From NCBI RefSeq assembly GCF_007860075.1, contig NZ_SJPP01000005.1, positions 1 to 64,000 on the forward strand: 64,000 nucleotides of DNA, in the 5' to 3' direction. The DNA comes from Symmachiella macrocystis. Lineage in GTDB: Bacteria; Planctomycetota; Planctomycetia; Planctomycetales; Planctomycetaceae. A program made the translations under genes and the position numbers. Of the stretch, positions 33,311-51,267 are shown one piece after another (the stretch's first letter is position 1; each line of letters starts with the position of its first letter). The notes below the pieces were generated by a model that did not search any database, was not told where the DNA came from, and saw only the letters and a list, made by a program, of their open reading frames with translations.

Positions 33311-35767
33311 CTACGGACCGGCATCATTAGATTTGATGAGCCAGACTTCAGAGACCATACAGCCACGACCGTCGACGAGGTTCCATTCTACGTCCAGAGT
33401 ACCGCCTCGGGTTGCTGCCTGGGGCACGTGGTAGCTGACTGGCCAGATGGGGGATGGTTGAGCGACAGGACCATGAATGCCGAACTCGTCGTTCAAAGTG
33501 AGCGTCATGCTGGGGCGGAAACGGCCAGCGTATGTGACTTTGAGTCGGTACTGGGCTTTCGGATCGAGACCTTCGTACCTCATCTTGAGCGGCGTACCGT
33601 AGAGCGTGGTGATTTGTGTTTGCCAAGACCCCCGCAATTCTTGACGTCCCGTATGGGCTCCTGCCACGCGGGCCACTTCTTCTTTGAACGCCAAGTCGTC
33701 CTTTTCCGTCTGTCCGGTCTGCTTTGCAATCGTCTTGGCGTCCGCCTTGTAATTCGGGAAGGCCACGCGAGAGGTGTGATTGCCCGAGGGGTCCTCTTCC
33801 CAGCTGTGTTGCGAAATTACGTGCGAGTACTTTCCGATTGTCCCCAGATCATCGTAGAACCCGCCGGGGCCCGGATCCTCCCAATTCAGGATGGTTTTGA
33901 TTTGCGCAAGCTGCTCTGCCTGATTGGGGAGTGCCAGAATTGCTTCAAACCGCTGTTCCAGCCAGGGCCGATTGTTCAATGGCTGATCCAGCCAGTCCAG
34001 CATAGCGCCGCGTTCTGAATTTCGGGCGAGATAGGGTGGCTCGACGCTCAGTTGATAACCGATGCTCTCCAGCATCAAAGGTCCCAATTCCTCAAGGCCG
34101 GACCGCAGCGCAGGTGCTGCCGGTCGGTCAGCTTGAGCCAGCGCCGCACGGGCACTTTCGATGGCTTGGCTCACGCCAGTCTGTGAGGCATCGGCCAGTG
34201 CGGCGAGTGCCTGGGCTTCATAACCCTTCTGGGCACGGGCTTCTGCCTGGACGTTGGCGTCGAATCGGGCGCGAAACAGATACATCTGTGCTCGCCAGTT
34301 TTTGTCAAAATCGGGAACGCGCTTCGCAATTTTTTCCCACAAGGCCAGCGTGCGGGGAATTGCTGTGTTCTCCGCAATAGGTCCACTCCAATTGGCCTCC
34401 AGCCCGCGCAGCCCCTCTGCAACGTCCTTCGCCAGATCGACTCCAAACCAGACCTTGCCGTACTCCTCAAGGGCGATATCCATGTCTGCCTGCGGATCCC
34501 AGCCGAGAACGTTCCAGACCTGTTTATTCAGATCATCATGGATTCCATCAGAATACGTGCCGAAACCGTCGCTGAGATTTAAGTATCTGCGGTAGATGTG
34601 AGACTGCTTTTGGGGCATCGGCATCACGGGTTCTCGGCCAATGGTGTGCGCAAAGGCTGGGTCCCAGTTGGGGATCGGGTACTGGCAGCGCACCGTATGG
34701 TTGATGTCCGGATATCGCCGGATGGGATAGCGGGTTGGTGTGCGTTCACGCATTTCCTCCCATCCCATCTTGATCCATGGTCCGTAGATAAGTCCGGCGA
34801 GCCAGTCGGGGCTGTTGGAGGTAAGGTAGTCGAAGAAGTAGTCGTTTTCTTCCAGCGTGAAGGTCTGATTGGATACCCAGATTTTGGCATTGGGATGAAT
34901 TTCCTTGAGAACGACTGACAGCTTCTCAAGGAAGGGCATCAAATGCTCGGCCGGTGTATCGCCGTCGTCACCACCGGGAATAAACAAGTGATCGATCGCC
35001 GAATAATCCTCGAGGAATTTGCGACGCAGTGCGATCGCCCGCGCCGCGCCCTCCGGCGTTGTCACATCTTCACCCTCGATTGCCATGACCGGCGACCAGA
35101 TCCAAACGTCAATGCCGTAAGACCGGATTAGCTCCGAGAGCGCCACGTTCATCGAACGCATCGTCTCGGTCATGACCGGACCATCTTTGGCATTCGCGTC
35201 AAGATTGCTGATGAGTTCCACGCCATTGCAACCGAATAAGATCAGATCGCGGATGTATTGCTCATACATGTCCACCGTCCAGGCATCGTATGTATTGGCT
35301 GTATTGCGGTATGCCAACTGGTGCGCGCGAATTGGAACGTCCGGCGACGAAATGATCGGTTGATCGAGCTTCAGGGTCAAAATTCCGGGCCGATACGTCG
35401 CGAGGCGAATCAGTCGCCCCGCAGCGTAGAGTGCGCCTCGCGCGTCATGTCCGACTAGGCAGACTTCTTTTTCGCGGACGGCGACCGTATACGATTCGGG
35501 CTTTTGTGGTACCTCCACAATCGAAACATCTGCCGATGTCCCCAGACGGATGACCACCCCATCTGCGGGTGCGGATTTGGCAATAGGCAGTGTGATGCCG
35601 CTGCGCTCAGCCAGTTCTTCCTGCAGCATGACTGCCGCCTTCGCCACCACGGGCGACGGAGAATCTGTCACGATTGTTGCCGTCGACAAATCGATCGTCG
35701 AAGCCGCTATCGCGACAGCAGGACTGAGGACAATGAACAGAAATCCGCCTAGTAAGCTGCGATACAT
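33311..35767 (-). CDS. Large secreted glycoside hydrolase (GH20/alpha-glucuronidase-like N-terminal domain)
   Basis: An 818-residue exported protein. I use the ATG at 35767, which begins a signal peptide (MYRSLLGGFLFIVLSPAVAI); the frame runs 30 codons further up without a signal. Residues about 20-145 resemble the domain found before GH20 and alpha-glucuronidase catalytic domains (KAAVMLQEELAERSGITLPI, GRLIRLATY). The middle is TIM-barrel-like (CNGVELISNLD, LIRSYGIDVWIWSPVMA, DHLFIPGGDDGDTPAEHLMP). The C-terminal ~150 residues look like a beta-sandwich. The acidic DGDTPAEH segment could hold catalytic residues, but I cannot assign them. It fits a glycan-degrading role beside the sulfatases. 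Confidence 0.75.
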   Translation of the reverse strand: MYRSLLGGFLFIVLSPAVAIAASTIDLSTATIVTDSPSPVVAKAAVMLQEELAERSGITLPIAKSAPADGVVIRLGTSADVSIVEVPQKPESYTVAVREKEVCLVGHDARGALYAAGRLIRLATYRPGILTLKLDQPIISSPDVPIRAHQLAYRNTANTYDAWTVDMYEQYIRDLILFGCNGVELISNLDANAKDGPVMTETMRSMNVALSELIRSYGIDVWIWSPVMAIEGEDVTTPEGAARAIALRRKFLEDYSAIDHLFIPGGDDGDTPAEHLMPFLEKLSVVLKEIHPNAKIWVSNQTFTLEENDYFFDYLTSNSPDWLAGLIYGPWIKMGWEEMRERTPTRYPIRRYPDINHTVRCQYPIPNWDPAFAHTIGREPVMPMPQKQSHIYRRYLNLSDGFGTYSDGIHDDLNKQVWNVLGWDPQADMDIALEEYGKVWFGVDLAKDVAEGLRGLEANWSGPIAENTAIPRTLALWEKIAKRVPDFDKNWRAQMYLFRARFDANVQAEARAQKGYEAQALAALADASQTGVSQAIESARAALAQADRPAAPALRSGLEELGPLMLESIGYQLSVEPPYLARNSERGAMLDWLDQPLNNRPWLEQRFEAILALPNQAEQLAQIKTILNWEDPGPGGFYDDLGTIGKYSHVISQHSWEEDPSGNHTSRVAFPNYKADAKTIAKQTGQTEKDDLAFKEEVARVAGAHTGRQELRGSWQTQITTLYGTPLKMRYEGLDPKAQYRLKVTYAGRFRPSMTLTLNDEFGIHGPVAQPSPIWPVSYHVPQAATRGGTLDVEWNLVDGRGCMVSEVWLIKSNDAGP

Positions 35768-36189
35768 CGGATCAATTCTCTCTCTCTCGTGCGGTCTGGC
35801 CTGATTGTGGTGTTGGTTGGGCGGAGCACTCGCATCGTCCCGAATCGTTGCAGGCAAAACTCCAAATCAGAGGGCGATCGATCAAACCGTTTCGTCCTAA
35901 AATTACCCAAATGGAATCCGTCTTGGCCGCAGGGCGATTTGTTCGAGTATATCCTGAACTTGCCTGCTCCGCCACGAGTTCATTGCCATCGCGACCGTTT
36001 CGCCGCACGTGGGACGGCCTCCAACGCCCTTCTCTCCCCGTTGCGAACGGACCGTTCGTACCTTCCTTTGTCAACTTCGGAGTTGTTCAACGCGGCAGGG
36101 CCTCATTCCGGCATGGGAAGGGGGCGTTTCATTTTCAGCCGATGGATCCGCTGTAGCAGTTGCCGAAACAGTGGACGGGGAATCGCCAC
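35768..36189. other. Upstream region of the glycoside hydrolase gene; no gene seen
   Basis: This stretch probably holds the promoter of the minus-strand hydrolase. Open frames exist on both strands but have no RBS, no recognisable domain and a poor residue mix, so I call none. Confidence 0.5.
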
Positions 36190-36990: not shown

Positions 36991-37335
36991 ATGAACGATA
37001 TAACCATCGAAGTATGGGATGCAACTGGCAACAAAAAACAGTCCGTGGAACTGCCGGAAGATGCTGAGGTCAATCGCGTGATTGTCGTTCTCGTCGAACG
37101 CATGAATTTACCCGTGCACAGCCCGGATGGACAACTCATGAGCTACAAGTTTCATCACAAAAGCAGCGGCCGACAATTGTTGGATGATGAGACCCTGCAT
37201 TCGGCCGGTGTGAAAGATGGCGATATCTTACGGCTGCAACCAGAAATCACTGCAGGAAGCCCTGGACCGCAACAAAACGGCGTCGCGCCAGTTCCAATTG
37301 ACAACTTGGGGGGACGCATTGGCCATTTCAATTAA
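36991..37335 (+). CDS. Ubiquitin-like beta-grasp protein
   Basis: A 114-residue protein. Residues 1-85 fit a ubiquitin-like fold of the YukD/EsaB kind: DITIEVWDATG (strands 1-2), VNRVIVVLVERMNL (helix), YKFHHKSSGRQLLDDETLHS and AGVKDGDILRLQPE (last strands). A flexible Pro/Gln tail follows and ends NLGG-RIGHFN: a Gly107-Gly108 pair is followed by six residues, as in ubiquitin precursors that need trimming. I choose the ATG at 36991, nine bases after GAGG; the ATG at 36982 touches that site. First gene of a nine-gene run with E1, E2, JAMM and RING-like genes, so it is the likely conjugated modifier. Confidence 0.82.
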   Translation: MNDITIEVWDATGNKKQSVELPEDAEVNRVIVVLVERMNLPVHSPDGQLMSYKFHHKSSGRQLLDDETLHSAGVKDGDILRLQPEITAGSPGPQQNGVAPVPIDNLGGRIGHFN

Positions 37336-38515
37336 GTGGAGTGAAAAAGAAGGCGATCAGCGTTTCGACCGGTTCAAATTAATCTCCTGGTGGGACCAAC
37401 AACGATTGGCCGAGGCGAACGTGTTGGTAATCGGTGCCGGGGCGCTTGGCAACGAAATTCTTAAAAATCTGGCGCTGCTCGGAATCGGTCAAGTGTTTGT
37501 CGCCGATTTGGATTCGATTGAGAATTCCAATTTATCTCGATGCGTTCTGTTTCGTGCTGAGGATGAAGGACGTCGAAAATGCGACGTGGCGGCCGGACGG
37601 GCGTCTGAAATTTATCCGGATATGAAGATTCAGCCGTTTTTCGGCAATGTGGTTTACGATTTGGGGTTAGGTGTCTTTCGCTGGGCTGACGTGATTTTGT
37701 GCGGTTTAGATAATCGCGAAGCCCGTGTGGCCATTAACCGTGCCGCTGCCCGTGCAGGCAAGGTCTGGATTGACGGCGCGATTGAACGATTGGACGGTGT
37801 GGCGCGCGTGTTCGATCCGGCATGTGGTCCGTGCTATGAGTGCACAATGAGCGAAGTCGACTGGAAAATGTTAGAAGCACGGAGGAGTTGTGCGCTACTC
37901 TCGCGAGATGAAATGAATCAAGGAAAGGTCCCAACGACGCCGACAACCGCTTCGATTATCGCAGGAATTCAATGCCAAGAAGCGGTCAAGCTACTGCACG
38001 GTCTCGATGTGCTTTCCGGGCAGGGATTCGTTTTCGACGGTTCGAACCATCAGAGTTATGTCGTCGACTACACGCAGCGGAGCGAATGCCCATCGCATGA
38101 TCCCTATCAGCCCATTGTCCGGGAGTCATGGAGCGTCTCCGACATCACTGCAAGTGACATGTTGCAACGCGTTCGCAGAGATCTAGGGCCGACGGCTGTG
38201 GTCGAATTCAACAACGACCTATTAGAATCGTTACGTTGTCCAGAGTGTGAGAACGAAGAAATGATGTTTTCCTCGTTGGGGTGCGTCAATGAACGAAAAG
38301 GCCGCTGTACGTCATGTGGGGCAGACCGGATCCCGCAAACATTCCATACCCTCAACGGCCAAGAAAAGTTTTTGGATCGGACACTCAAAGATTTGGGTGT
38401 CCCGGAATGGGATATTATCGGAGGCCGTTCTGGCCTAGAACAAAAGTATTATGAGTTTGGCGGCGACCAGGATTCCGTATTGGGGCCTCTAGGTGGGACT
38501 GATCATTCCCGATGA
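37319..38515 (+). CDS. E1-like ThiF-family adenylating enzyme with C-terminal zinc ribbon
   Basis: An enzyme of about 398 residues expected to adenylate the C-terminus of the ubiquitin-like protein and hold it as a thioester. The Rossmann domain starts with VLVIGAGALGNEIL (Gly39, Gly41, Gly44); DLDSIENSNLSR carries the nucleotide-binding Asp and the Arg finger. A zinc pair lies in CGPCYEC, and Cys191 in ARRSCALLS is at the position of the MoeB/E1 active cysteine, followed by TTASIIAGIQCQEAVKLL. The C-terminal 100 residues add a zinc ribbon (CPEC...CTSC), unusual for MoeB. The start is uncertain: TTG at 37319 overlaps the first gene by 17 bases, while ATG at 37217 would overlap by 119. Confidence 0.88.
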   Translation: MAISIKWSEKEGDQRFDRFKLISWWDQQRLAEANVLVIGAGALGNEILKNLALLGIGQVFVADLDSIENSNLSRCVLFRAEDEGRRKCDVAAGRASEIYPDMKIQPFFGNVVYDLGLGVFRWADVILCGLDNREARVAINRAAARAGKVWIDGAIERLDGVARVFDPACGPCYECTMSEVDWKMLEARRSCALLSRDEMNQGKVPTTPTTASIIAGIQCQEAVKLLHGLDVLSGQGFVFDGSNHQSYVVDYTQRSECPSHDPYQPIVRESWSVSDITASDMLQRVRRDLGPTAVVEFNNDLLESLRCPECENEEMMFSSLGCVNERKGRCTSCGADRIPQTFHTLNGQEKFLDRTLKDLGVPEWDIIGGRSGLEQKYYEFGGDQDSVLGPLGGTDHSR

Positions 38516-38581
38516 ATTACCACAAAGTTGCTTTCGGTTGATCGCGCTGCGACACACAACGGGAAAGACGCGGGAGTCAGC

Positions 38582-39703
38582 ATGACAGATTCGAGTATGA
38601 GTTTGCCCGACGTCCGGCAAATTGTGTTGGAAGAATTGCCTCAAGCGGATTTTCCCGTCAACCTATCTGAGGATTTTCGCGTCCACTTCACTGAGAAATG
38701 CCATGTGTCTATTCTGGCTCATGCTGAAGAGGATACGTCCGTCGAAATCTGTGGTGTACTGGTGGGAGGAGTACAGCACGATGCACACGGCCCCTTCGCA
38801 TTGATCTCTGAACACATTCGTGCCGACGCCGCTACGAGTAAGTTCGCTGAAGTGACGTTTACCCACGAAGCCTGGTCAAAAATCAATGCGGAGATGGATT
38901 CACGGTATAGTGATTTGAGCATCGTCGGCTGGTACCACACACACCCAGACTTTGGAATATTTCTGTCGGACCGAGATGAATTCATTCACCAGAATTTCTT
39001 TTCCGGTGCCAGTCAAATCGCTCACGTGGTCGATCCGATTCGTAAGACCGAGGGCGTCTTTGTCTGGCGCGAGGGCAAGCCACATCTCTGTTCCCATTTT
39101 TGGGTCGGCGACGAAATCCGCGCGGAAACCCAGCGCGAAACAGCGGCCGGCCAATCGCCGCCACAGCCCGGTGCTCCCGAGGCGGTCGTTGCGCGGGTTG
39201 AAAACGCCGCACCGGGGCCGTTGTACTTTTGGATGTGTATGGCGCTGGTGTTTCTTCTGGGCTATATGCTATCAGGCATACTTTCGAATCGGCGATCCAA
39301 TTGGGAGCAACGGATGATCTTCCGTGGCGTCGTTCAGGAATATGGAATTATCAAGAATCTGCGACCAGGACTGAAACGGCACCTGGACGCCGTCGACTCG
39401 GGCTTGGGGTTGGCGACTTTGGAGATTGAAAAACTATCCAAGGAGCATGCATTACTGGCAGGTGATGAAAAGAACAAGATTCGCAAGCAATGGCGCACGG
39501 TGCTCAATACGGTCGCAAAAAGTCAAAAACAACTGGACGTGATTGAAGCGACATATTGTCTCACAAACGAAGAATCTGAAATCGTTGAAGGCCTGCTCAA
39601 ACAAATTCTCACCGACGCCGCTCCCCAGCCCGCCTCGCCCAAGTCGCCAAGCGAGCAGAAAACGAGCGAATCCTCGTCATCCGATAAACCACCAGCGGAG
39701 TGA
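38582..39703 (+). CDS. Membrane-anchored JAMM (JAB/MPN) isopeptidase
   Basis: A 373-residue protein with an N-terminal JAB domain (about 30-175). The zinc-metalloprotease signature is complete: Glu55 (SVEICGVLVGG), His119-x-His121, Ser129 and Asp132 in GWYHTHPDFGIFLSDRD, with exact H-x-H-x7-S-x2-D spacing. A Pro-rich linker leads to one membrane segment (about 214-234, YFWMCMALVFLLGYMLSGIL), then a ~100-residue helical region and a Ser/Pro tail. It should cut the ubiquitin-like protein from conjugates or trim its tail. I chose the ATG at 38582, six bases after GGGAG; upstream codons lack an RBS. Confidence 0.9.
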   Translation: MTDSSMSLPDVRQIVLEELPQADFPVNLSEDFRVHFTEKCHVSILAHAEEDTSVEICGVLVGGVQHDAHGPFALISEHIRADAATSKFAEVTFTHEAWSKINAEMDSRYSDLSIVGWYHTHPDFGIFLSDRDEFIHQNFFSGASQIAHVVDPIRKTEGVFVWREGKPHLCSHFWVGDEIRAETQRETAAGQSPPQPGAPEAVVARVENAAPGPLYFWMCMALVFLLGYMLSGILSNRRSNWEQRMIFRGVVQEYGIIKNLRPGLKRHLDAVDSGLGLATLEIEKLSKEHALLAGDEKNKIRKQWRTVLNTVAKSQKQLDVIEATYCLTNEESEIVEGLLKQILTDAAPQPASPKSPSEQKTSESSSSDKPPAE

Positions 39704-39709
39704 ACTGAA

Positions 39710-40783
39710 ATGCCTGCCCCGAATCAGCCAATCCGCATCCACCAAGATGACCTGCATTCTCCAAGTGTGGAGGAATCTCTACAGCAGCAGGCGCATCTGG
39801 GCCGCGACGTTGGCGAGATGGCGCCACAATCGTGGCTGGTTCGAACACTTTTTTCCAGTTGGTTCTATCTGTCAGTGACGAGCGGCTTGGGGGCGTTTGT
39901 TGCCTGGATGATTCTGGAGCCTTTCTTTGACGACTCAATGGCAGGTCAAGACGACGTCGAAATTGTCAACTTGCTTCTGTTCCCTACTGTTGCCGGATTC
40001 ATTGGCCTGTTTTTGGGAGCTGCCGAAGGAATCATGTGCCGCAATGCAAGCCGTGCCGTGATCAGCGGTGCGATTGGGCTGGGAGTTGGCTTTGGGGGTG
40101 GTTTGATTGCTTTGGTTGCCGCTGGCTGTATTTTTACAGTGATGACATCCATCGCACTGGAGTTTTGGGAAAATCCACAGGACGATGAAATGCCAACCGG
40201 ATTTGCTCTGTTAATCCTTATGATGGGTCGGGCAGCAGCCTGGGCCGTTGCAAGTATTCCTGCTGGATTAGGTCAGGGCATCGCGATCCGCCAGAAAAAA
40301 GTGGTCCTCAACGGAGTTGTGGGAGGAGTGCTGGGCGGGTTAGTGGGAGGATTGTTATTCGATCCGATTAGTCTGCTATTTGTCACTGATGACGGTGAGG
40401 CCAGTTTAAGCCGAGCCATTGGGTTAACATGCATAGGACTCTCGGTCGGCCTATTTGTCGGCTTAGTCGAAGGCTGGACGAAGACAGCCTGGTTGCTGAT
40501 GCAAAAGGGGCCATTGGCCGGAAAGCAGTTTGTAATGTATCGCGATACCACAGTGCTCGGCAGTTCACCCAAAGCCGACATTTATTTGTTCAAAGACGAT
40601 GTGATTGAACCGCGACACGCGCTGATTCATAACCGGGGTGGACGTTTTGAACTTGAAGATTGCCAAACCCCTGATGGGACCTACGTCAACGGGATTCCGA
40701 TCAAACGGCACGTCTTGCACGCGGGCGATCAAATCGGCCTCGGCAAAACCGTATTGGAGTTTTCAGTAAAAGAAAAAGTATAG
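39710..40783 (+). CDS. Multi-pass membrane protein with C-terminal FHA domain
   Basis: A 357-residue protein. After a polar start (1-42), about six or seven hydrophobic, Gly-rich segments run to residue 255 (SGLGAFVAWMILEPFF, VAGFIGLFLGAAEGI, GVVGGVLGGLVGGLL, GLSVGLFVGLVEGW). The last ~90 residues are an FHA domain (TTVLGSSPKADIYLF, DVIEPRHALI, DGTYVNGIPI, GDQIGLGKTVLEF), which binds phosphothreonine. It would bring a phosphorylated partner to the membrane next to the conjugation machinery. No kinase gene lies in this run. The gene starts six bases after the JAMM gene. Confidence 0.85.
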   Translation: MPAPNQPIRIHQDDLHSPSVEESLQQQAHLGRDVGEMAPQSWLVRTLFSSWFYLSVTSGLGAFVAWMILEPFFDDSMAGQDDVEIVNLLLFPTVAGFIGLFLGAAEGIMCRNASRAVISGAIGLGVGFGGGLIALVAAGCIFTVMTSIALEFWENPQDDEMPTGFALLILMMGRAAAWAVASIPAGLGQGIAIRQKKVVLNGVVGGVLGGLVGGLLFDPISLLFVTDDGEASLSRAIGLTCIGLSVGLFVGLVEGWTKTAWLLMQKGPLAGKQFVMYRDTTVLGSSPKADIYLFKDDVIEPRHALIHNRGGRFELEDCQTPDGTYVNGIPIKRHVLHAGDQIGLGKTVLEFSVKEKV

Positions 40784-40813
40784 GTTGATCATTCACATCT
40801 TTAGGAGCCGGTC

Positions 40814-41350
40814 GTGATTGAATTTGAGTGTCCAACATGTGGGAAAGCATTGAAAGTCCGTGAATCCTCCGCTGGCAAGACGGGGAAATGCCCCGATTGT
40901 AACGGAAAGATCCAAGTCCCGGACGCCGTGTATGATGCCGAAGAGGTCGAGTCCTACTCAACGCAGGGCGACGACGATTTCTCTTCGTTTGACGGCTATG
41001 AAAACGCCGGAACTCCGATCCCACGTGAAGAGGCCGAAGGCGCTTTCCGACATCCGTGCCCGGTTTGCGGAGAGATGATTAAAGACTCAGCCGTCAAATG
41101 CCGCTATTGCGGAGAAATCTTTGACGAGACACTCAAGAAGAAGGAGAGCCGTCATTCGGATGAGGATGCCGATTTGACGACGGGCGACTGGGTGTTTTGC
41201 ATTATATGTAGCGGAATCGCCTGTATCTTTGGCATTGTTTATATGATTCAGGGAAAGCCCAAAGGGATCAAAATGGTCGGCATCTCTTTTGTAATGCAAA
41301 TCGTTTGGGGAATTGTCCGAGTAATTCTTGAAGCAGCAGCGAATCGTTAA
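40814..41350 (+). CDS. Zinc-ribbon membrane protein
   Basis: A 178-residue protein with two zinc ribbons and two membrane segments. Ribbon one: Cys6, Cys9, Cys26, Cys29 (FECPTCGKAL, GKCPDCNGKI), of the MJ0042-like kind also seen at the end of the E2 gene product. An acidic linker follows, then ribbon two (PCPVCGEMIKDSAVKCRYCG), close in sequence to the ribbon in the next gene. Membrane segments are at about 128-147 and 155-173. The GTG start follows TAGGAG. It may be an adaptor; no enzyme motif is present. Confidence 0.8.
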   Translation: MIEFECPTCGKALKVRESSAGKTGKCPDCNGKIQVPDAVYDAEEVESYSTQGDDDFSSFDGYENAGTPIPREEAEGAFRHPCPVCGEMIKDSAVKCRYCGEIFDETLKKKESRHSDEDADLTTGDWVFCIICSGIACIFGIVYMIQGKPKGIKMVGISFVMQIVWGIVRVILEAAANR

Positions 41351-41367
41351 AAAGAGGTGGAAACAAC

Positions 41368-41475
41368 CACAGAGACCGCACAGAGACCGCACAGAGACCG
41401 CACAGAGACCGCACAGAGACCGCACAGAGACCGCACAGAGACCGCACAGAGACCGCACAGAGACCGCACAGAGAC
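41368..41475 (+). repeat. Tandem array of an 11-bp unit
   Basis: CACAGAGACCG is repeated nine times without error from 41368 to 41466, and a tenth copy breaks off after CACAGAGAC at 41475. The array fills most of the 140-base gap between two genes of the ubiquitin-like operon and ends 15 bases before the next ATG. An 11-bp period is close to one DNA turn. Confidence 0.95.
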
Positions 41476-41490
41476 TTAGGCTGACCAGCA

Positions 41491-42201
41491 ATGTCAAACA
41501 TCATTCAATGTGAGTGTGGGGCGAGTATACGATTGCCCTCTAATACAGAGAAACGCGCTCTGCGCTGCCCCAAATGCAAACAGGGCATTGCGCTGACCGT
41601 CCACGCGACAGCGCTGAAGACAGTACCAGTGGATGCAGGTGAAACAGTCGCAACCTGTTCGATATGTCAATCGTCAGCGCATGCGTCTGAACAGTTGGTC
41701 AGCTGCCCGCAATGCGATCAGATTCATCACCAGGAATGTTGGGCGGAAGTGGGGGGATGCGGGACTTATGGTTGTAGTGAAGCCCCCGCACATGAGAAAG
41801 ATGTGAGTTCTTCTCAGACGCAGCGTTCTGGGTGGGGGGATGAGAAAACGTGTCCTGCTTGCTCTGAATCGATCAAGTCGATTGCATTACGATGCCGTTA
41901 TTGCGGCACCGACTTCAATACCGTTGACCCTTTGACTGTGAAAGATTTGCGGCGGCAGGTGAAGCATGAGTCGGCGGTCGGAGATTTGCGAAATTGGACC
42001 ATTGCCATTTTTGTCATGAGCTTGATCGGGTGTTTTGCCCCCATCATGATATTCGTGGCCTTCGGTGTATTACTGAACAAACGCAAGGAATTAAAAGCAG
42101 CCGGCCCGATTTACTTGGTATTGTGTTATTCCGCGGCGATTCTGTCTGCGATATACTCATTTTTGATGCTTGCGTTTGCGATAATAAGCGGACTGAATTA
42201 A
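41491..42201 (+). CDS. Membrane protein with zinc ribbons and a RING-like domain (candidate E3)
   Basis: A 236-residue protein. A first ribbon uses Cys7, Cys9, Cys26, Cys29. Next comes a binuclear treble-clef domain with Cys56, Cys59, Cys72, Cys75, His80, Cys83, Cys90 and Cys95, that is C-x2-C-x12-C-x2-C-x4-H-x2-C-x6-C-x4-C, the pattern of prokaryotic RING fingers. A second ribbon (CPACSESIKS, LRCRYCG) follows, and then two or three membrane segments (IAIFVMSLIGCFAPIMIFVA, LVLCYSAAILSAIYSFLMLA). With E1 and E2 in the run, it is the best candidate for an E3-type ligase or scaffold. No clear ribosome-binding site stands between the repeat array and the ATG. Confidence 0.82.
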   Translation: MSNIIQCECGASIRLPSNTEKRALRCPKCKQGIALTVHATALKTVPVDAGETVATCSICQSSAHASEQLVSCPQCDQIHHQECWAEVGGCGTYGCSEAPAHEKDVSSSQTQRSGWGDEKTCPACSESIKSIALRCRYCGTDFNTVDPLTVKDLRRQVKHESAVGDLRNWTIAIFVMSLIGCFAPIMIFVAFGVLLNKRKELKAAGPIYLVLCYSAAILSAIYSFLMLAFAIISGLN

Positions 42202-42217
42202 CCGACGAACCCGACTG

Positions 42218-43537
42218 TTGAATAAAGCCCGTCCAACATTGGATCAACCCCATAATAAATCACTGCTGGCTGGAAGCCGTGAGGCGGGAGTGCTTTGCCC
42301 CCACTGCCGAGGAGAGATCGAACTGGGCGAGATGGTCTCCATCTGCCAGGCATGTGGTCAAGTCCAGCATGAGAAATGTTTTCAGAATTGGGACACGTGC
42401 GGATCGTATCATTGTGCGCCGCAGCGACGTGTGGAATTGGCGGCGCAGCCATCTGACATCAAAATTACTTCCGGCGATCTAAAACGCGTGCATCCAGCGA
42501 AATCCGTATTTCATCCTCGCCGCCCACATGCCAATTCTGCTTCCGCAGCGGGAGTTTCGTCCGACCGGCCAGGGATGAATCGCTTGGCAGTCATTGCACT
42601 GGTGATAGCCCTGCTGGGAATTCCGTTATTCGGCCTTATCACCGGGTTAATGGCAATTGCGCTGGGGTGCATTGCTCTGGCGACACACAAACCCAATGCC
42701 CGCGGCGCCGGATTCGCTGTCTCTGGAATTCTGCTGGGCGTGGTTGATATGGCGGGTTGGGTCGTGTTTCTTGCCTTGTTCTTGAACGGCCGCGCCGAGA
42801 ATCATCAAGTGATCGAATTCGAACCGGACGCGGCTGAAATCGAGGCTGCCGCCCCACATATTCGCCGTGCGATCAAAGCAAACGTGTTGATTGAATCGCA
42901 CAACGGCATACCAGGATTTTCTGGAGGCTCGATCGGATCGGGAGTGATCCTCCGAATCCAAGACGGAGAAGCGTTGATCGTAACCAACCGGCATGTCATC
43001 GACGACGAGTATACAGGGGACGAGTTTCACGACACGAAACTGCCGACAGATATCGGCGAATTACGAATCAAGCTGATTGGGCAACTCTCGCAACCGGGAA
43101 AACTAGTCTGGATGGCTCCCGACGGGATCGACTTGGCGTTGTTAACCGTGCCTGTCTTGTCACCGGATGTGTTGCCTGCGGTTTGGGATGCTGCGGTTCC
43201 CCAACTGGCCGTGGGGGATGAAGTATTTGCGATTGGGAATCCTCACGGTTTGGGCTGGACACATACGAGCGGTGGGATTTCACAGTTTCGGTCCCTGGCC
43301 AGCGGCAATCGTAAAATTCGCGTGATTCAAATCAGCACCGCGATCAATTCCGGTAACAGCGGAGGAGGTCTTTACGATCAAGCTGGGAAATTGATTGGCA
43401 TCAATACCTGGAGCGATGACAAGCGATTTAGCGAGGGGCTTAGTTTTACCATCGCGTTTGAATCTCTGTTAGAATTGGCACCACATCCATTGGAGGGTTT
43501 TATCCCCCCTCAAATTGAGGCCTCAGACGCACTATGA
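42218..43537 (+). CDS. RING-like, membrane and trypsin-like serine protease fusion
   Basis: A 439-residue protein. Its N-terminal RING-like domain has ligands Cys27, Cys30, Cys43, Cys46, His51, Cys54, Cys61, Cys66, the same spacing as in the preceding gene. Two membrane segments follow (about 121-155 and 166-190). The C-terminal half is an HtrA/trypsin-like protease with His259 (VTNRHVID), Asp305 (DGIDLALL) and Ser381 (NSGNSGGGL), so the triad is complete; no PDZ domain is present. The start appears to be the TTG at 42218, since no ATG precedes the first zinc ligand. It joins a candidate ubiquitin-ligase module to proteolysis in one chain. Confidence 0.87.
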   Translation: MNKARPTLDQPHNKSLLAGSREAGVLCPHCRGEIELGEMVSICQACGQVQHEKCFQNWDTCGSYHCAPQRRVELAAQPSDIKITSGDLKRVHPAKSVFHPRRPHANSASAAGVSSDRPGMNRLAVIALVIALLGIPLFGLITGLMAIALGCIALATHKPNARGAGFAVSGILLGVVDMAGWVVFLALFLNGRAENHQVIEFEPDAAEIEAAAPHIRRAIKANVLIESHNGIPGFSGGSIGSGVILRIQDGEALIVTNRHVIDDEYTGDEFHDTKLPTDIGELRIKLIGQLSQPGKLVWMAPDGIDLALLTVPVLSPDVLPAVWDAAVPQLAVGDEVFAIGNPHGLGWTHTSGGISQFRSLASGNRKIRVIQISTAINSGNSGGGLYDQAGKLIGINTWSDDKRFSEGLSFTIAFESLLELAPHPLEGFIPPQIEASDAL

Positions 43538-44205
43538 GCAACGTACGACTGCGCCGATTGCAATCGGACTATGAGAAGTTGGGGAGTTTTATCAAGCAGC
43601 ATCCGAGGCTGACATTGATTCAAGCCGATGGTGATCCCCCCGAGAGATATCAACTGGAATACCGTATCCGCAGCATTCGACAAGTCGATGATGACGTTGA
43701 ATGGATAAAAAACCACACTGTAGAAATTTTGTTGCCACGGAACTATCCACGTGTCCCGCCCCAATGTCGGATGCTCACTCCGATATTTCACCCCAACATA
43801 GCGCCGCATGCCATCTGCGTAGGAGACCACTGGAGTGCGGGCGAACCATTGTGGTCGATCGTCGCTCGCATCGGCGAGATCATCGCCTATCAAAGCTACA
43901 ATACAAAAAGCCCCTTAAATGGCGAAGCGGCGCGGTGGGTCGACGAAAACAAAGTGCAACTGCCACTCGACCCGGTCAGTATGCTCCCCGAGGAGAAGGC
44001 ATCGCGATCCCGGAAGATAACCCGATCCGCTCAATCCGCGAAGGGCAAAGTCAAATCCACACATGTGTCGGAGCCAGCGACGCTTTCCGTCCCGTGCACG
44101 AATTGCCAAGCACGCTACAACGTGCCGGTTGATAAGGCCGGCAAACGTTTTCGTTGTAAACGTTGTCAAACTCTGATTCAAATCCCCGGCCAACCGGTTT
44201 CTTGA
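43534..44205 (+). CDS. E2 ubiquitin-conjugating-like enzyme with C-terminal zinc ribbon
   Basis: A 223-residue protein whose first ~145 residues have the UBC fold: VEILLPRNYPRVPPQCRMLT, then FHPNIAPHAICVGDHW with the HPN motif (86-88) and catalytic Cys95, then the Trp and helix region PLWSIVARIGEIIAYQSYN. It should take the modifier from the E1 and pass it to targets. A basic Ser/Lys linker leads to an MJ0042-type zinc ribbon (PCTNCQARYN, FRCKRCQTLIQI). Four-base overlap (ATGA) with the preceding gene. Confidence 0.9.
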   Translation: MSNVRLRRLQSDYEKLGSFIKQHPRLTLIQADGDPPERYQLEYRIRSIRQVDDDVEWIKNHTVEILLPRNYPRVPPQCRMLTPIFHPNIAPHAICVGDHWSAGEPLWSIVARIGEIIAYQSYNTKSPLNGEAARWVDENKVQLPLDPVSMLPEEKASRSRKITRSAQSAKGKVKSTHVSEPATLSVPCTNCQARYNVPVDKAGKRFRCKRCQTLIQIPGQPVS

Positions 44206-44642
44206 TGATTAACGATCGTATGGCACAGAACGGATTACGGATGCGCAATCGGCATCTCATGATGTTGACGACTGCAGCCGTTGTTGTCTGTTTGGCTTTT
44301 TTGCTCGAAGTACGCCCCGACCAAGGCGTTCAACTCCGCATGTTTAAAAGTCATCCGCTTCCCTCAAGTTGCATTTCGAGAGATGTGTTTGGTGTCGATT
44401 GTCCAGGTTGCGGCCTCACACGGAGTTTCGTGTATTTGTCGCACAACCAATGGGCGGAATCTTTAGCCGTACATCGTGTTGGGTGGGTGTTGGCCATAGC
44501 TGTGCTCCTCCAGTTTCCTTATCGCATCGCCGCACTGGCCTATCATAAAGATTATCCGATTGGCAAACCCTTTACGGTATGGTTTGCCTGGGGACTGATC
44601 GCGATGTTGATCGGGAATTGGATACTCGGATTCTGGCTGTGA
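44205..44642 (+). CDS. DUF2752 membrane protein
   Basis: A 145-residue protein of the DUF2752 family, recognised by DCPGCGLTRSFVYLSHNQW and three hydrophobic segments (LMMLTTAAVVVCLAFLLEV, GWVLAIAVLLQFPYRIAALA, WGLIAMLIGNWILGFWL). Its function is unknown. The TGATG junction with the E2 gene (one-base overlap) shows it is translated with the run, so it is probably part of the system or a passenger at its end. Confidence 0.82.
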   Translation: MINDRMAQNGLRMRNRHLMMLTTAAVVVCLAFLLEVRPDQGVQLRMFKSHPLPSSCISRDVFGVDCPGCGLTRSFVYLSHNQWAESLAVHRVGWVLAIAVLLQFPYRIAALAYHKDYPIGKPFTVWFAWGLIAMLIGNWILGFWL

Positions 44643-45390: not shown

Positions 45391-46886
45391 TGCACCACCT
45401 CCGTTGCTAACGTCTTGATTCCCGTCGCATGAAACGTCACGCTGATCGTTCCGGCCTGCCCGTCGTAGTCGACCCGCTCGATCAGCAATTTCAGAAGCTT
45501 CGATTTCTCCTGTGAGGACAACTCGTCCCAGACCGGATCGAATTCCGCCAATGCAGTCTGCACGTCCGCCTCATTGATGATCCGGTTTCGCAAGTCTGCC
45601 AATTCGCTACGAATCTCCGACTGTCGCCGTTCTGCGATCGCCTCGCGTTCCTGGGCGTCGGCCAATCGGGCCGTCTCCTCCGCGGCAACTGCCCGTTCCA
45701 TTTCGCCGCCCAAACGCCCCAGTTCCCGCGAAAACGCCCGCGTTTCAGTTTTTAGTTCTTTGATCGCCTTTTAGGTCTGCGACCGCGACGCAGCCTACGT
45801 GGCGGCGACGAGGCCGGGATCGCGGCCGATCGCTCGGATCTGGTCCACCACAAACCGTTCGATTTCGCCGGCCGGTACTGATTTTGGAGGGCACTCGCCG
45901 TATCCCCGTTTCTGCGCATTGGTGCAGACGTAATACCGGTACCGCTTTGTCTTGTTCTTGACCACGTGCGAAGGCGTCATCCGGCAACCACACGGTGCGC
46001 AGTGGAGCAGTCCCTTGAGCAGCGCGCCGAACCGGTTTCGCACGTCGCGACCGCCGTTGCGGTGGTTTTTTCGCAGCAATTCCTGTACCCGGCGAAATAT
46101 CTCCTGATCGACGATCGCCTCGTGTTCCCCCTCGTAGACGGCCTCTTTGTGCCGCACTTGGCCGATGAAGGCCACGTTGGTCAGTTGTTTGTGCAGACTC
46201 GTCTTGTCGAATCGGCGGCCACCACGGGTTTTGCCTTTCTTGGTGGTCCAGCGCTTCGTCTTCCAACCCCGCTGATCGATTTTCGCGATAGTTGGCAGCA
46301 GCCCTTCGTGCTCCAGATAAAGCTCGAATATCTGTCGGATCTGCAGTGCCTCGATTTCGTTGATGACCAGTTTCGTGTTGATGATGTCATATCCCAGGAT
46401 CGGCGGGCCGCCAGCGTATTTTCCCTTGCGGCGGGCAGTCGCCATCTTGTCTCGCGTCCGCTCGGAGATCATTTCCCGTTCGAACTGGGCGAACGACAGC
46501 AAAATGTTCAGCGTGAGCCGTCCCATGGAATGGGTGGTATTGAATTGCTGCGTGACCGAGACGAACGAGATGCCGTGTTGTTCAAAGACCTGCATCATGC
46601 TGGCAAAATCAAGCAGGCTGCGGCTAAGGCGGTCGACCTTGTAGACCACAACGCATTCAATGCGGTCCGCTTCGATGTCGGCCATTAGTCGTTTTAATCC
46701 CGGACGGTCCATGTCTCCTCCCGAAAAGCCACCATCGGCATATTCGGTGGGCAAGCACTCCTAGCCTTCGTGACGGTGGCTGGCGATGAATGCCTCGGCG
46801 GATTCTCGCTGGGCGTCGAGCGAATTGAATTCCTGTTCGAGCCCCTCGTTGGTCGATTTGCGGGTGTAGATGGCACAGCGCGTCAT
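45369..46886 (-). pseudogene. Large serine recombinase, decayed by three in-frame stops
   Basis: Read from the ATG at 46886 (strong AAAGGAGGA upstream), the frame codes a 505-residue serine recombinase: N-terminal resolvase domain ([29 protein letters not shown]), recombinase domain, a zinc-ribbon part (HCAPCGCRM, CTNAQKRGYGEC), and a coiled-coil tail. Three stops lie in this one frame: TAG at 46763-46761 between HEG and ECLPTEY, TAG at 45797-45795, and TAA at 45773-45771. No frameshift was needed to read through. The first replaces a codon one base from TGG. The catalytic Ser would lie in the N-terminal part ([11 protein letters not shown]). I judge it inactive. Confidence 0.85.
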
Positions 46887-47374
46887 TGCTGTCCTCCTTT
46901 AACATTCAGGCGGAAAATGAGAAATCCATTGGTGTGTGTGCCGGTGATCGCCTTGGCGACCGCCGAGAGCGACTTGAAGGTTTCCCCCTCGTATTCGAAG
47001 CCCTCGTCGAGCACCTTCACGCGGACATCACCCCCCTTCTAGATTCGGGAAAGCGTCGTGCCGGGTAACAGCAGTCGGGGATCGTGGCGATTCGGCAGCT
47101 GTCCCGTCCGCGCGGGTGGCTTTGCCAGATCGTGCCCCTGTGGCGGTTTGAGCCACAGATCGGCGTCGTTGGCCAATTCCATTGCCCGGCGGCGAGTCCG
47201 TTCCGACAGGTCCCCTTCCTCATTGGCCTGCATCCGCCAAGCAATCCGCTTGATCAACCATTGTTTGTGGTTGGAGCGGCATTCTTCGCCGAAGACCTCC
47301 TCGTACCGCACCCGCAATTCACGGGGCGTCATTCGCCGCAACGCGGTAACCTCTTGCTCGATGTTCAACGCCAT
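46883..47374 (-). pseudogene. DUF2924 protein, split by an amber codon
   Basis: From the ATG at 47374 (AGGAG upstream) the frame gives MALNIEQEVTALRRMTPREL and continues to PGTTLSRI, where a TAG (47041-47039) falls; after it the same frame runs VKVLDEGFEYEGETFKSLSA to the end at 46883, overlapping the recombinase ATG (ATGA). Together they match the DUF2924 family, often found beside serine recombinases; the missing residue is probably the Trp of the family's W-x-G motif. Decay matches that of its partner. Confidence 0.8.
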
Positions 47375-47408
47375 GAATTTACTCCTGTGTGTGAGACTCT
47401 CGAAACCG

Positions 47409-47587
47409 TTAACCAACGGTGACAGTGAGCCTCGAATCGTCGCCGGCATCAAGGCATGTCGGGGCGGATTTTTCTAGGCGTGGAGGGGAGATTGGCCTGG
47501 CGTGGAGCCGCTGAACGGCGCGGGCGAGGAGTTCGGCGATTTGGCGGTCGCGATCTTCCGGTGTGTGGTGGGGGGTGCTGTGTTCAT
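47409..47587 (-). pseudogene. Small leader gene of the recombinase module, frameshifted
   Basis: The frame ending at 47409 reads EDRDRQIAELLARAVQRLH and then SAPTCLDAGDD, a protein-like sequence without a start: a TAG lies just upstream in that frame. The ATG at 47587 is in another frame, and a run of six C residues (about 47570-47575) between them is the likely indel site. It looks like the first gene of the DUF2924-recombinase transcript. Confidence 0.5.
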
Positions 47588-47608
47588 ACTATTTATTTAC
47601 GCAATCGG
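47587..47608 (-). promoter_or_regulatory. 22-bp element upstream of the recombinase module
   Basis: On the minus strand this 22-base stretch contains GCGTAAATAAATAGTA and ends at the ATG of the small leader pseudogene. The identical 22 bases occur at 51268-51289 on the plus strand, upstream of the primase genes. Because each copy points at the first gene of its module, a promoter or operator is more likely than a recombination site. Confidence 0.55.
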
Positions 47609-47709
47609 CCGTTGCGGTTGCCCGAAAAATGAATCGTTTTTTCCTGCGTGGTAATTTGGAAGACTTCATCCTGATCCCACACCATTGATGTACAACAAGG
47701 AGACAAGTA

Positions 47710-48921
47710 ATGGCTGATTACCGCATGAAGCGGTTGTCGAACCCGGGGGTGCTCCGGTCGATCGATCGAAAAAACCTTAGTGGTTTCCTGACGCAATATC
47801 GCGATTTCTTCGCGAGGCGAGGCTTAAAGCTGCCCGAAAAGTCGAAAGGCGGTCGCCTGAATTACGACAAACTTATCACCATATTGATGACCCCTGACGA
47901 GGAAACGCCCCACGAGTTGCTCGATGCGTTATATCTCATCGACGAACTATCGACGCCAGATGCGCAGGCCGCGCTCATCAATGAATTCCATGCCAGGAGC
48001 GGCGAGATGGAGATTTTTGTCGTTAGTTTTCCTGAAAACCTGACGCTCGACAATCCCAGCCCTGCCGATGTCGCATTGTGCATGTGGTTGTACGATCGAA
48101 ACGTCGTGGTGCGAGTGCATGCCGAGTGGGCGATGCCCAATGCGACACGATTTTATTATTTCCGCTCCAGCGAATCAGAGTTGGAATTCCCAGACCGGAT
48201 CGAGGAGGCACTATCGAACTTACAGACCGAACTTGGAAATTGGTTCGAGTCACAGAAGTGGGGACGTAGCACAGAAATATTCGATTTTGGTGGTGATGTT
48301 GATCGCTGGTTTCTAGTCCGGCATGGACAACCCTACCGGCGCCTGGAAGGCTGGAATGGAAAAAGTATCGTTAGCATTGAATACCAACCATTGATATACG
48401 ATGCGATTGTATTTGACGGTGAGCACGGCTTGCTCAAAGTCAAACCCTGCTCGCACCCCGGACCCGAAGCCGAACTCTATCGCAATCTCGTTGGCAAACA
48501 CGTTTTTGGCGACGATCGGATGTTTAGCGAAGACCAAGTGTTTTCGCTGGAACCACTGAAGGACTACGGCCAACGGTCGCTGGGTTGTGGTGCGAATGAA
48601 GGCCTTGACTCAATTCGTGCCACCGGATTGATCTGGCATTTCCAAGATGTTTATGGCCGCGTGGAAACGTGGAATTCGGACAATATCTTTAGCAGCAGTA
48701 CGGATCTGGAGGGCGATGTGGTGGAAACGGCCGCGCTCATCGAGGCTGAATTTAATGTGGTGTTCTCCGGCGAGACGAATCCTCGGCCGTTTCGGCTTCA
48801 ATTGCCAAACATTGCTAAGTTCTCTCGCAATGAGGACATCTCACTAATCGAGCGGTGGTTAACAGAACAACGATTTATGGACAACGAGGCTGGGAATGAC
48901 AACGTGGCAACGATTTTGTGA
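47710..48921 (+). CDS. Unknown protein, first gene of a two-gene cassette
   Basis: I do not recognise this 403-residue soluble protein. It begins after a strong AAGGAGAC. An N-terminal helical part (about 1-85, with MKRLSNPGVLRSIDRKNLSG and DALYLIDELSTPDAQAALIN) precedes a long mixed region rich in aromatic and acidic residues, with no signal peptide, membrane segment or known catalytic motif. It overlaps the next gene by 26 bases, so the two are probably made together. Its place between a recombinase module and a replication module is typical of variable cargo in mobile islands. Confidence 0.75.
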   Translation: MADYRMKRLSNPGVLRSIDRKNLSGFLTQYRDFFARRGLKLPEKSKGGRLNYDKLITILMTPDEETPHELLDALYLIDELSTPDAQAALINEFHARSGEMEIFVVSFPENLTLDNPSPADVALCMWLYDRNVVVRVHAEWAMPNATRFYYFRSSESELEFPDRIEEALSNLQTELGNWFESQKWGRSTEIFDFGGDVDRWFLVRHGQPYRRLEGWNGKSIVSIEYQPLIYDAIVFDGEHGLLKVKPCSHPGPEAELYRNLVGKHVFGDDRMFSEDQVFSLEPLKDYGQRSLGCGANEGLDSIRATGLIWHFQDVYGRVETWNSDNIFSSSTDLEGDVVETAALIEAEFNVVFSGETNPRPFRLQLPNIAKFSRNEDISLIERWLTEQRFMDNEAGNDNVATIL

Positions 48922-50062
48922 AGCGCTCGAGCGTATCCCCAATCAGGAGGCTGTGCTCGTTCAATGGCGGTTGTTGGTGGGTGACGACATTGGACTCATC
49001 CAGAAGTTATTGCGACGGACGGAGCGGCGAGCTTACACTATTCTGACGCGACAAGGGGCAGCACTGTCGGTAAGGAATTTGCCAGACGGTAGCTGTGTCG
49101 GTGTCAACCGTGAATCCGGCGAGCGACAGATAATCATTGATGACGAACGTTGGATCTACGAGCTGGACGAGGTTAATTTGATCAAGGGTGTTTGCCAAGT
49201 TTTGGGAGCCTTGCCTTCAGCAATAACTGTGGAGCTTCCTGCTTCGACTCGCATGATCGGCAAACTGTCTGCGGATCCCGATTTGGCGGTTCCTACATAT
49301 CTCATCATCGCTATCAGCTCAGGGCAGTTTGAACAATCTCTGAATGCTCTTGTAGCAGGGTCCTCAGAATCTTTCATCGTATTCGCTGCAACAGACAAAT
49401 TCCTCGATGCGTCCTGTACAGCCCTACTTGATCGACAACGATGTCTGTTTCTCCCATTTTGCGAAGTTTTCCAGTTTTACGAGTGTGATTGGCTGATAAC
49501 TCCGATCGGACGGCGCGCAGTGGAGGTGTTCTCAGAGAAGTTTCGAGAGGAACGCAGAGACGAAGGCCGATCGATGGAACGTAATTCCAGGATTCGTGTT
49601 GAAAGGGAATGGCCGGATCCGAATGAACATACGACTGCGAAGGTTTGGACCGTTAAATCAGGTGCATTGAAGATCAGTACGAAGACGGACGGGCACCCCG
49701 ATGAAACGGTTGAATTCTCTCCAAACCAAGATGGTACTCCAACCAAACAACTCCAACTCATGAGATTGTTGTGCTTCAAGTTCCCCGTGCCAGTCACATT
49801 CTCAACTATCCTTGAAGAAGTTTATCCTGGGGCCTTGGTCGAAAGCCCGCGTGAACCTGAAACGCTAAAATCCACATTGGCAAAAATCGGAACACTTGTA
49901 AGTGATTGTGGAAAAAAACTGGAAAAAGCTGGACTTAATCTACGCATATTGCCATCGCTGAAAATCGAACCGACACGGGGTACAGCGATTTCGCTCCAAC
50001 TCCGAAGTCTTCACCGAATGGACGACAAGTCGCTTGATGAGGGTGACGAACCACTTCTCTAG
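48896..50062 (+). CDS. Unknown protein with possible winged-helix end, second gene of the cassette
   Basis: A 388-residue protein that I do not recognise. Residues about 1-240 are mixed alpha/beta (DGSCVGVNRESGERQIIIDD). A charged linker (EERRDEGRSMERNSRIRVER) follows. The last ~110 residues (TKQLQLMRLLCFKFPVPVTF, TLKSTLAKIGTLVSDCGKKL) could be a winged-helix DNA-binding domain of the kind found at the end of response regulators, though weakly. No membrane part. Translationally coupled to the preceding gene; a hairpin terminator follows at 50190. Confidence 0.72.
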   Translation: MTTWQRFCEALERIPNQEAVLVQWRLLVGDDIGLIQKLLRRTERRAYTILTRQGAALSVRNLPDGSCVGVNRESGERQIIIDDERWIYELDEVNLIKGVCQVLGALPSAITVELPASTRMIGKLSADPDLAVPTYLIIAISSGQFEQSLNALVAGSSESFIVFAATDKFLDASCTALLDRQRCLFLPFCEVFQFYECDWLITPIGRRAVEVFSEKFREERRDEGRSMERNSRIRVEREWPDPNEHTTAKVWTVKSGALKISTKTDGHPDETVEFSPNQDGTPTKQLQLMRLLCFKFPVPVTFSTILEEVYPGALVESPREPETLKSTLAKIGTLVSDCGKKLEKAGLNLRILPSLKIEPTRGTAISLQLRSLHRMDDKSLDEGDEPLL

Positions 50063-50189
50063 CGAACATCTGCGCAGATGGCAAATCGCAGAAGTCGTTT
50101 CTGCGCAAGGTTCTACACCGGCCGTTCTATTCAGGTAGCAGGTCCGGTGAAACCTACTAATTAACAATCAACCGCAGCCAATGCGGTCG

Positions 50190-50233
50190 CACCCCGTGGG
50201 AACTCCTTCACCGGACTTGCTTCCCACGGGGTG
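50190..50233 (+). terminator. Intrinsic-type terminator after the two-gene cassette
   Basis: A perfect 13-bp stem, CACCCCGTGGGAA with TTCCCACGGGGTG, and an 18-base loop, followed by ATTTATTT. It lies about 130 bases after the second cassette gene and before the next gene. Confidence 0.7.
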
Positions 50234-50271
50234 ATTTATTTGGCCACAGGGCCAGGAAGCGAGGATTCGTT

Positions 50272-50616: not shown

Positions 50617-50629
50617 ACCTCTACCCAGC

Positions 50630-50653: not shown

Positions 50654-50686
50654 CTCTTCTGATCGTCCCACCTGAGGATGGAACCA

Positions 50687-51247: not shown

Positions 51248-51267
51248 TTCGCGGGCGCTTGCGCCAC

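Follow-up and report, generated by a model that had tools for sequence, protein, structure and literature searches.

Whether a bacterium can encode, in one operon and at its membrane, all the parts of a conjugation pathway for a ubiquitin-like protein (Ubl) is the question raised by positions 36991-44642 of a 64,000-nucleotide stretch of Symmachiella macrocystis DNA (contig NZ_SJPP01000005.1, positions 1 to 64,000, forward strand; hereafter the window). Nine open reading frames (ORFs) lie there on the plus strand in the order Ubl, E1, JAB, FHA, zinc-ribbon, RING, RING-protease, E2 and DUF2752, with spacers of -17, 66, 6, 30, 140, 16, -4 and -1 bases (starts as chosen). They probably encode a complete and reversible Ubl-conjugation pathway that is tethered to the inner membrane. 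This reading is held because of the families to which the proteins belong, their intact catalytic residues, the conserved Ala-Gly end of the Ubl, the conservation of the operon and the predicted membrane segments. An earlier reading, made from the letters of the window without database searches (the sequence-only reading), had described nine closely packed plus-strand genes of these families, and both the ORF coordinates and the Pfam matches confirmed it. Its interpretation was on the whole supported too, by a first gene of the YukD family, a UBC-type E2 and a gene order that is conserved elsewhere. The features of the locus are listed below, with lengths in amino acids (aa) and with predicted transmembrane (TM) helices.

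36991..37335, plus strand: Ubl of the YukD family, 114 aa (Pfam YukD, 9.5e-11)
37319..38515, plus strand: E1-like activating enzyme, 398 aa, one ThiF domain (ThiF, 1.8e-49)
38582..39703, plus strand: JAMM/JAB metallopeptidase, 373 aa, start inferred (JAB, 1.3e-9)
39710..40783, plus strand: membrane protein with about five TM helices and, behind them, an FHA domain at the C-terminus (FHA, 1.6e-13; hydropathy)
40814..41350, plus strand: zinc-ribbon protein with two TM helices and a GTG start (zinc-ribbon matches under the Pfam cut-offs; hydropathy)
41368..41475, no strand: perfect 11-bp tandem repeat, 9.8 copies, between the zinc-ribbon and RING genes
41491..42201, plus strand: RING protein (Prok-RING_1, 32.4 bits in the genome-wide search)
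42218..43537, plus strand: RING-like domain, DUF4190 membrane segment and trypsin/HtrA-like serine protease (Pfam, motifs)
43534..44205, plus strand: E2 (UBC) with a C-terminal zinc ribbon (UQ_con, 6.5e-11)
44205..44642, plus strand: DUF2752 membrane protein (DUF2752, 1.1e-14)

In the Pfam scan the cut-offs were passed by the Ubl, E1, JAB, FHA, E2, trypsin and DUF2752 matches and missed by the zinc ribbons and by both Prok-RING_1 matches. The 140-base spacer is the location of the 11-bp repeat. Spacing and strand point to co-transcription of the genes; promoter-like and terminator-like matches were not above those in shuffled sequences (4 versus 6.9 and 8 versus 9.3, respectively). The genome measures 7.6 Mb and is by estimate 96.6% complete.

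The catalytic residues of the E1, the E2 and the JAB protein are intact in the window. The start of the E1 is best placed, by inference, at the TTG at 37319, and its invariant RxSC cysteine is then numbered Cys191. Together with the nucleotide motif GAGALG this agrees with the GxGxxG motif and the Cys191 of the sequence-only reading; a putative zinc site (CYEC...CxxH) is present as well. In the residue alignments, which include the window and drop four duplicate loci, Cys191, the CxxC/CxxH residues and the nucleotide Gly residues were found in 93/93 rows. Structure prediction, which had been proposed as a check, was run on the E1 and on the first RING protein. For the E1, a model built from 55 sequences (pLDDT 92.3, pTM 0.91) had UBA3 of the NEDD8 E1 as its first Foldseek match (2.8e-22), and ThiF was matched at a TM-score of 0.90 normalised by its own length. 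The alignment with UBA3 ran over 461 columns at a root mean square deviation of 10.5, and a UFD-like C-terminal domain of the E1 is no more than a possibility. In a profile search of the PDB the nearest proteins, among the best 60 of 80 matches, were UBA7, UBA1 and UBA3. The model thus supports a eukaryote-like E1. The E2 carries HPN at residues 86-88 and Cys95, both of which had been named before, and its profile matched solved eukaryotic E2s (best 3.9e-13), as would be expected of a UBC fold; Ubc13-type enzymes were closest among the best 60 of 262 matches. HPN was present in 76/76 rows and the Cys in 74/76 rows with a residue at that position (two rows are gapped). No other UQ_con match was found in the genome at E 0.1. 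In the JAB protein the motif HTHP-x6-S-x2-D and an upstream Glu make up the complete JAMM metal motif that had been claimed, and these Glu, His, His, Ser and Asp residues were found in 106/106 rows.

That the first gene encodes a beta-grasp protein had been set beforehand as a test, and its membership of the YukD family at 9.5e-11, over the Pfam cut-off, argues for such a fold. No convincing relative of ubiquitin came up when the PDB was searched with a profile of the Ubl: designed TIM barrels ranked first to third (E 0.0027-0.021), and ubiquitin-like and other proteins followed at E 0.11-0.32. All of the 90 complete Ubl domains in relatives end in Ala-Gly (one incomplete domain was left out of this count). 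The protein stops exactly at this dipeptide in 42 of them, and tails of 1-10 residues occur in 37, of 11-40 residues in three and of more than 40 residues in eight. The alignment, with one gap, has Ala-Gly in 91/91 rows. In the window the conserved C-terminus PEITAG corresponds to residues 84-89 and is followed by a tail of 25 aa up to the encoded end. The possibility that LGG plus six residues at the encoded end form the active end was rejected; this tail region is missing or replaced in the aligned relatives. In its mature form the Ubl most likely stops at ...PEITAG and lacks the last 25 encoded residues, and the LGG is therefore not regarded as the conserved site. A conjugatable C-terminal Gly is thus present with a 25-residue tail behind it, which implies that processing is needed. 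Removal of the tail is probable, with the JAB protein as a plausible peptidase for it. Relatives extend past the same Gly in two ways that make sense of a cleavage at Ala-Gly. In five Chloroflexi loci (L106, L113 and L115-L117) the E2 is fused behind it. In three loci from metagenome-assembled genomes of Ruminococcaceae (L079, L081 and L105) the Ubl ORF continues, with 318 further residues in all, into what by eye is a membrane or lipobox-like segment.

The conservation of the operon was examined in loci of relatives, among them those found by scanning genome contigs with the E1 profile. The best 80 of 374 loci were kept, most of them from metagenome-assembled genomes, and these included Planctomycetota, Lentisphaerota, Kiritimatiellota, Armatimonadota, Acidobacteriota, Bacillota, Chloroflexota, Verrucomicrobiota and Riflebacteria among others. 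The ORFs of the loci were labelled with purpose-built profiles for Ubl, E1, E2, JAB, RING, FHA and protease, and a marker was taken to co-occur if it lay on the strand of the E1 within 7.5 kb; four duplicates were dropped and the window was not counted. Among 92 loci, many of them cut by contig ends, the Ubl was found in 85, the E2 in 70, the JAB in 85, the RING in 65, the FHA in 51 and the protease in 30. Among the 43 loci flanked by 5 kb or more on each side these numbers were 42, 42, 43, 38, 30 and 18, respectively, the protease gene near the E1 being either fused or separate. Control stretches of 20 kb, 20 of them regularly spaced over the genome of the window and searched on both strands, gave two FHA hits and none for Ubl, E2, JAB, RING or protease; the E1 profile had two hits, as expected of MoeB/ThiF-like proteins. 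Given this co-occurrence and the conservation of the residues, clustering and residues alike go beyond chance. All six markers were found together in 20 of the 92 loci, including those of the named strains Lacipirellula limnantheis I41 and Edaphobacter aggregans DSM 19364. The search for the same gene order that had been proposed was successful: Ubl, E1, JAB, FHA, RING, RING-protease fusion and E2 follow each other in the planctomycete loci L039, L040, L041 and L058 and in L085 from Riflebacteria. Besides the window, these are the loci in which the fusion was found. L058 has two RING genes ahead of the fusion, and L085 has a DUF2752 gene after the E2, which is the order of the window minus the zinc-ribbon gene.

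Within 297 genomes of the class the E1 profile matched 83 at E <= 1e-30. In 58 of these the match was at E < 1e-150, and in the other 25 the best matches (about 1e-37 to 1e-30) covered part of the profile only; the two other genomes of the genus in this set had no match at E <= 1e-30. A quick tree of the E1, built on 55 chosen rows, required six changes for the Planctomycetota label and three for the Bacillota label; transfer is possible. An E2 search of 59 genomes gave true homologues outside the window in eight, nearly all other hits falling on the C-terminal zinc ribbon. Six of the eight, which belong to another family, have the order Ubl-E2-E1-JAB, and in three of the six a RING gene was found ahead of the Ubl. 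In G014 the locus (L031) lies at a contig end, has FHA as its first gene and includes a homologue of the zinc-ribbon protein gene. Two E2s without the active Cys were encountered. One is an orphan E2 in G006 (L032:8865-9665), which has HPN and the C-terminal zinc ribbon, adjoins (by eye) a MoaA-like radical-SAM gene, and had neither an E1 nor a Ubl hit in 19.9 kb; it looks like a UEV-type or decayed E2. The other is in the Pirellulaceae locus L114, which encodes three RING-profile proteins and two E2s (7717-8379 and 11554-12243), the second with Asn at the position of the active Cys. The E2s of L033-L038 share, by eye, a short hydrophobic-acidic C-terminal motif (ILFID/E-like) that recalls a SUMO-interaction motif and is absent in the E2 of the window. 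A Pfam scan of 20 accessory or core proteins from other loci returned zinc ribbons, LRR-transglutaminase, GYF, RDD, YbjN, vWA, housekeeping enzymes and others, and indicated no single function.

Hydropathy places most of the remaining parts in the membrane. TM helices were predicted in six of the nine proteins (JAB 1, FHA 5, zinc-ribbon 2, RING 2, RING-protease 2, DUF2752 3) and none in the Ubl, the E1 or the E2. This bears out the earlier statement that nearly all accessory parts are at the membrane, and extends to the JAB protein, whose helix (216-234) is followed by a C-terminal region. Proteins of the FHA family are known for phospho-threonine dependent recruitment, which suggests the same for the FHA protein of the operon. 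The sequence-only reading had also noticed a protease fused to one RING, and 42218..43537 indeed combines Prok-RING_1 with Trypsin_2 (7.7e-20), as well as DUF4190 (7e-9) and a Do-family match (1.4e-25) that stays under the cut-off of the Do-family model; its His, Asp and Ser motifs are RHVI, IDLAL and GNSGG. The charges around the last TM segment before the protease were compared in 26 protease proteins, of which three had no TM segment. Lys and Arg were in excess on the N-terminal side in 19 and the reverse was seen in one, which suggests that the protease is extracytoplasmic. By simple hydropathy the fusion of the window has two segments ahead of the protease, with one further doubtful helix inside the protease domain. 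Two segments would place RING and protease on one side of the membrane. If the long first segment is a hairpin, they would be on opposite sides.

The two RING-like proteins that had been predicted both have Prok-RING_1 matches. The first was found at 1e-6 and 29.0 bits in the Pfam scan, where the cut-off is 29.1, and passed with the bit score listed above when the whole genome was searched. That search gave two convincing RINGs, both in the operon, and one further place that was marginal (0.0037). The first RING protein consists of an N-terminal zinc ribbon, a C4HC3 RING encoded near 41656-41775, a second zinc ribbon and two TM helices (hydropathy). Its ligands C56, C59, C72, C75, H80, C83, C90 and C95 are invariant in 24 aligned sequences, namely the protein itself and 23 chosen of 62, and the C4HC3 spacing pattern fits 82 of 98 RING-profile hits. 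A model built from the 24 sequences (pLDDT 89.7, pTM 0.53) had RING E3 entries at Foldseek ranks 1-20, many of them complexed with an E2, and PHD and C1 domains lower. The E-values of these matches are weak (0.017-0.30), and the model gives support at that level for a first RING of E3 type.

From the sequences we infer covalent conjugation by the operon and a role of the protease in tagging; for E3 activity of the RINGs we infer the same from sequence and model together. The pathway would then start with a cut after PEITAG that frees the Ubl of its tail, most simply by the JAB protein. The C-terminal Gly would be adenylated by the E1, the Ubl would be loaded as a thioester on Cys191, and it would be transferred to Cys95 of the E2. 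Membrane RING proteins would recruit this E2~Ubl and promote the formation of isopeptide bonds with proteins in or near the membrane, with the Asn of HPN as the oxyanion residue, while the FHA protein may add phospho-dependent recruitment. The tag could be removed by the JAB protein, and the RING-fused HtrA-like protease might couple tagging to proteolysis, probably of envelope proteins. A more far-reaching proposal is that the operon is a bacterial counterpart of membrane-bound ubiquitin quality control, in which the RING ligase and the HtrA-like protease to which it is fused would lie on opposite sides of the membrane, and that this arrangement is shared across many phyla. This is put forward tentatively, as a minority possibility. 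If true, the sensing or cutting of envelope proteins outside would be linked to Ubl tagging inside, under phospho-control by the FHA protein.

A number of results weigh against a RING-driven conjugation pathway of this design. The second RING reached 2.9e-5 and 24.4 bits in the Pfam scan and 28.5 bits in the genome-wide search, both under the cut-off, the C4HC3 pattern was missed by 16 of the 98 RING-profile hits (mostly from Chloroflexi), and every Foldseek match of the RING model had an E-value above 0.001. In the 43 well-flanked loci the RING was undetected in five, the FHA in 13 and the protease in 25, and 7 of 30 protease hits missed a strict His-plus-GxSGG pattern, which is perhaps too narrow for some. 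The orientation of the JAB protein by charge was divided (22 versus 25 of 72 proteins). The conservation of GAGALG is biased because the motif was part of the search pattern by which loci were found. Moreover, the YukD of type VII secretion systems, after which the Pfam family is named, was reported to be unconjugated (PMC1779556, PMC5845737).

The RING results are also what would be expected if the RING-like domains were zinc-binding adaptors and the E1 and E2 conjugated the Ubl without an E3. Besides the weak scores, the five loci with no detected RING and the hits outside the ligand pattern, prokaryotic RINGs were reportedly described by Burroughs in 2011 as diverse in function. Invariance of the eight ligands in the chosen sequences, the 20 top-ranking RING E3 entries, many with an E2, and the occurrence of the convincing RINGs of this genome only here, beside its only E2, argue against adaptors. 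Conjugation of bacterial cGAS has been described for Cap2, a protein with E1 and E2 domains (PMC10097602), in favour of the adaptors; on balance they are considered unlikely. Less probable still is that the Ubl is conjugated to a membrane lipid, like Atg8/LC3, and that the membrane proteins serve as a docking or effector platform. Six of nine proteins are predicted to be membrane proteins, the Ubl has a single C-terminal Gly as in Atg8, and lipid conjugation was raised for a bacterial system in the cGAS paper (PMC10097602). However, the E2 is a canonical UBC protein with HPN in every row and Ubc13-type proteins as its nearest matches, and RING proteins, which would presumably be dispensable for lipid conjugation, are present. 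Least of all would we expect the Ubl to stay unconjugated and to act, like YukD in type VII secretion, as a structural or regulatory component of a membrane complex, with E1, E2 and JAB serving otherwise: the Pfam name and the fact that FHA and membrane proteins also accompany secretion systems speak for it, but the Ala-Gly end was found in 90/90 domains, E1, E2 and JAB are near-constant neighbours, and no FtsK/EssC-type ATPase and no ESAT-6/WXG100 protein was matched by Pfam among the nine operon proteins and ten downstream proteins, two of which had no match at all.

The probable conjugation pathway is a variant of an already known kind, because operons with an E1-E2-RING-JAB-Ubl core were predicted in 2011 by Burroughs, Iyer and Aravind, Planctomycetes included. 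PMC4197634, citing that prediction, places related operons in Actinobacteria, Planctomycetes and Acidobacteria; the sequence-only reading had also noted that RING-containing operons were predicted by comparative genomics. The term "tri-ligase" is used for such systems in PMC7159879. They have the same five core parts in one operon (Ubl, E1, E2, JAB and RING), and the window likewise has the five genes together, intact catalytic residues and a Ubl Gly, the latter followed by a tail. From the prediction as represented in the papers that cite it, the window differs in its free Ubl and E2, its membrane FHA protein and its RING-protease fusion. The FtsH-ternary conflict systems of PMC7159879 also have JAB, E1 and RING, with the Ubl joined to the E2. 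The five Chloroflexi loci with Ubl-E2 fusions, of which L113 has a vWA protein, fit that description, whereas in the window Ubl and E2 are separate and no vWA, MoxR, FtsH or caspase match was found by Pfam among the nine operon and ten downstream proteins. The operon of Caldiarchaeum subterraneum combines a tailed Ubl, E1, E2, a small RING protein and a JAMM peptidase; it is archaeal, its Ubl has a Gly-Gly end, and the available part of PMC5654768 mentions no FHA or protease partner. Its JAMM peptidase cuts a nine-residue tail off pro-ubiquitin in vitro, and its E1-E2-RING cascade was reconstituted in vitro (PMC5654768).

The bacterial cassettes known as Bil, Bub and CBASS Cap2/Cap3 resemble the operon in having E1, E2 and JAB, in part with a Ubl. 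BilD has two adenylation domains, one inactive and one active, whereas the E1 of the window has a single ThiF domain in 398 aa, so that the operon is not of the Bil type. In CBASS Cap2 the E1 and E2 domains are in one protein (PMC10097602), unlike the separate E1 and E2 of the window, where moreover no cGAS-like protein was matched by Pfam among the nine operon proteins. The PADLOC models for E1-E2 and BilD match the adenylation core only (best 1.8e-16 and 4.2e-8, respectively). Bacterial cGAS is conjugated via a single Gly or Ala at its C-terminus (PMC10097602). For the experimentally studied CBASS, Bil and Bub systems an E1, an E2 and a peptidase were described, and in the excerpts on them a RING E3 is not mentioned. 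According to PMC12687455, some bacterial UBL operons are complete, with UBL, E1, E2 and protease; the passage makes no mention of a RING. Among the openly readable papers listed in the literature searches, Burroughs 2011 not included, none was seen to put a bacterial E1-E2-RING-JAB operon to experimental test and none to describe the version with FHA and RING-protease. Because the E1-E2-RING-JAB set and the fixed Ala-Gly end of this family are found in named strains too, it becomes directly testable whether bacteria run a RING-driven tagging cascade and whether it works at the membrane with a protease.

A role in anti-phage defence was considered as well. PADLOC gave no hit for the Ubl, FHA, first RING, E2 and DUF2752 proteins; the E1, the JAB protein and the protease hit models via shared domains, and the zinc-ribbon protein had two weak hits (0.0013 and 0.0046). 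In a defence scan of nine neighbours (eight downstream, one upstream) at 1e-5 a DNA methyltransferase was the only match. The left flank matches a chromosome of the same genus at 90% up to 36072, where the match ends, and within 36073-60898 no match of at least 60 bases to that chromosome was found (39.8 kb compared). Downstream, 45795-55387 contains genes for a serine recombinase, a DUF2924 protein, a Prim-Pol, a D5-like helicase and a ParB-methylase. From these genes the element beside the operon looks like a mobile or phage-like one, so that the operon would adjoin it in a variable region. On the other side, 33314-35857 encodes an 848-aa protein of a large family that recurs elsewhere in the genome; its matches number 15 in G000, 11 in G001 and 6 in G002, and they include pieces of one gene.

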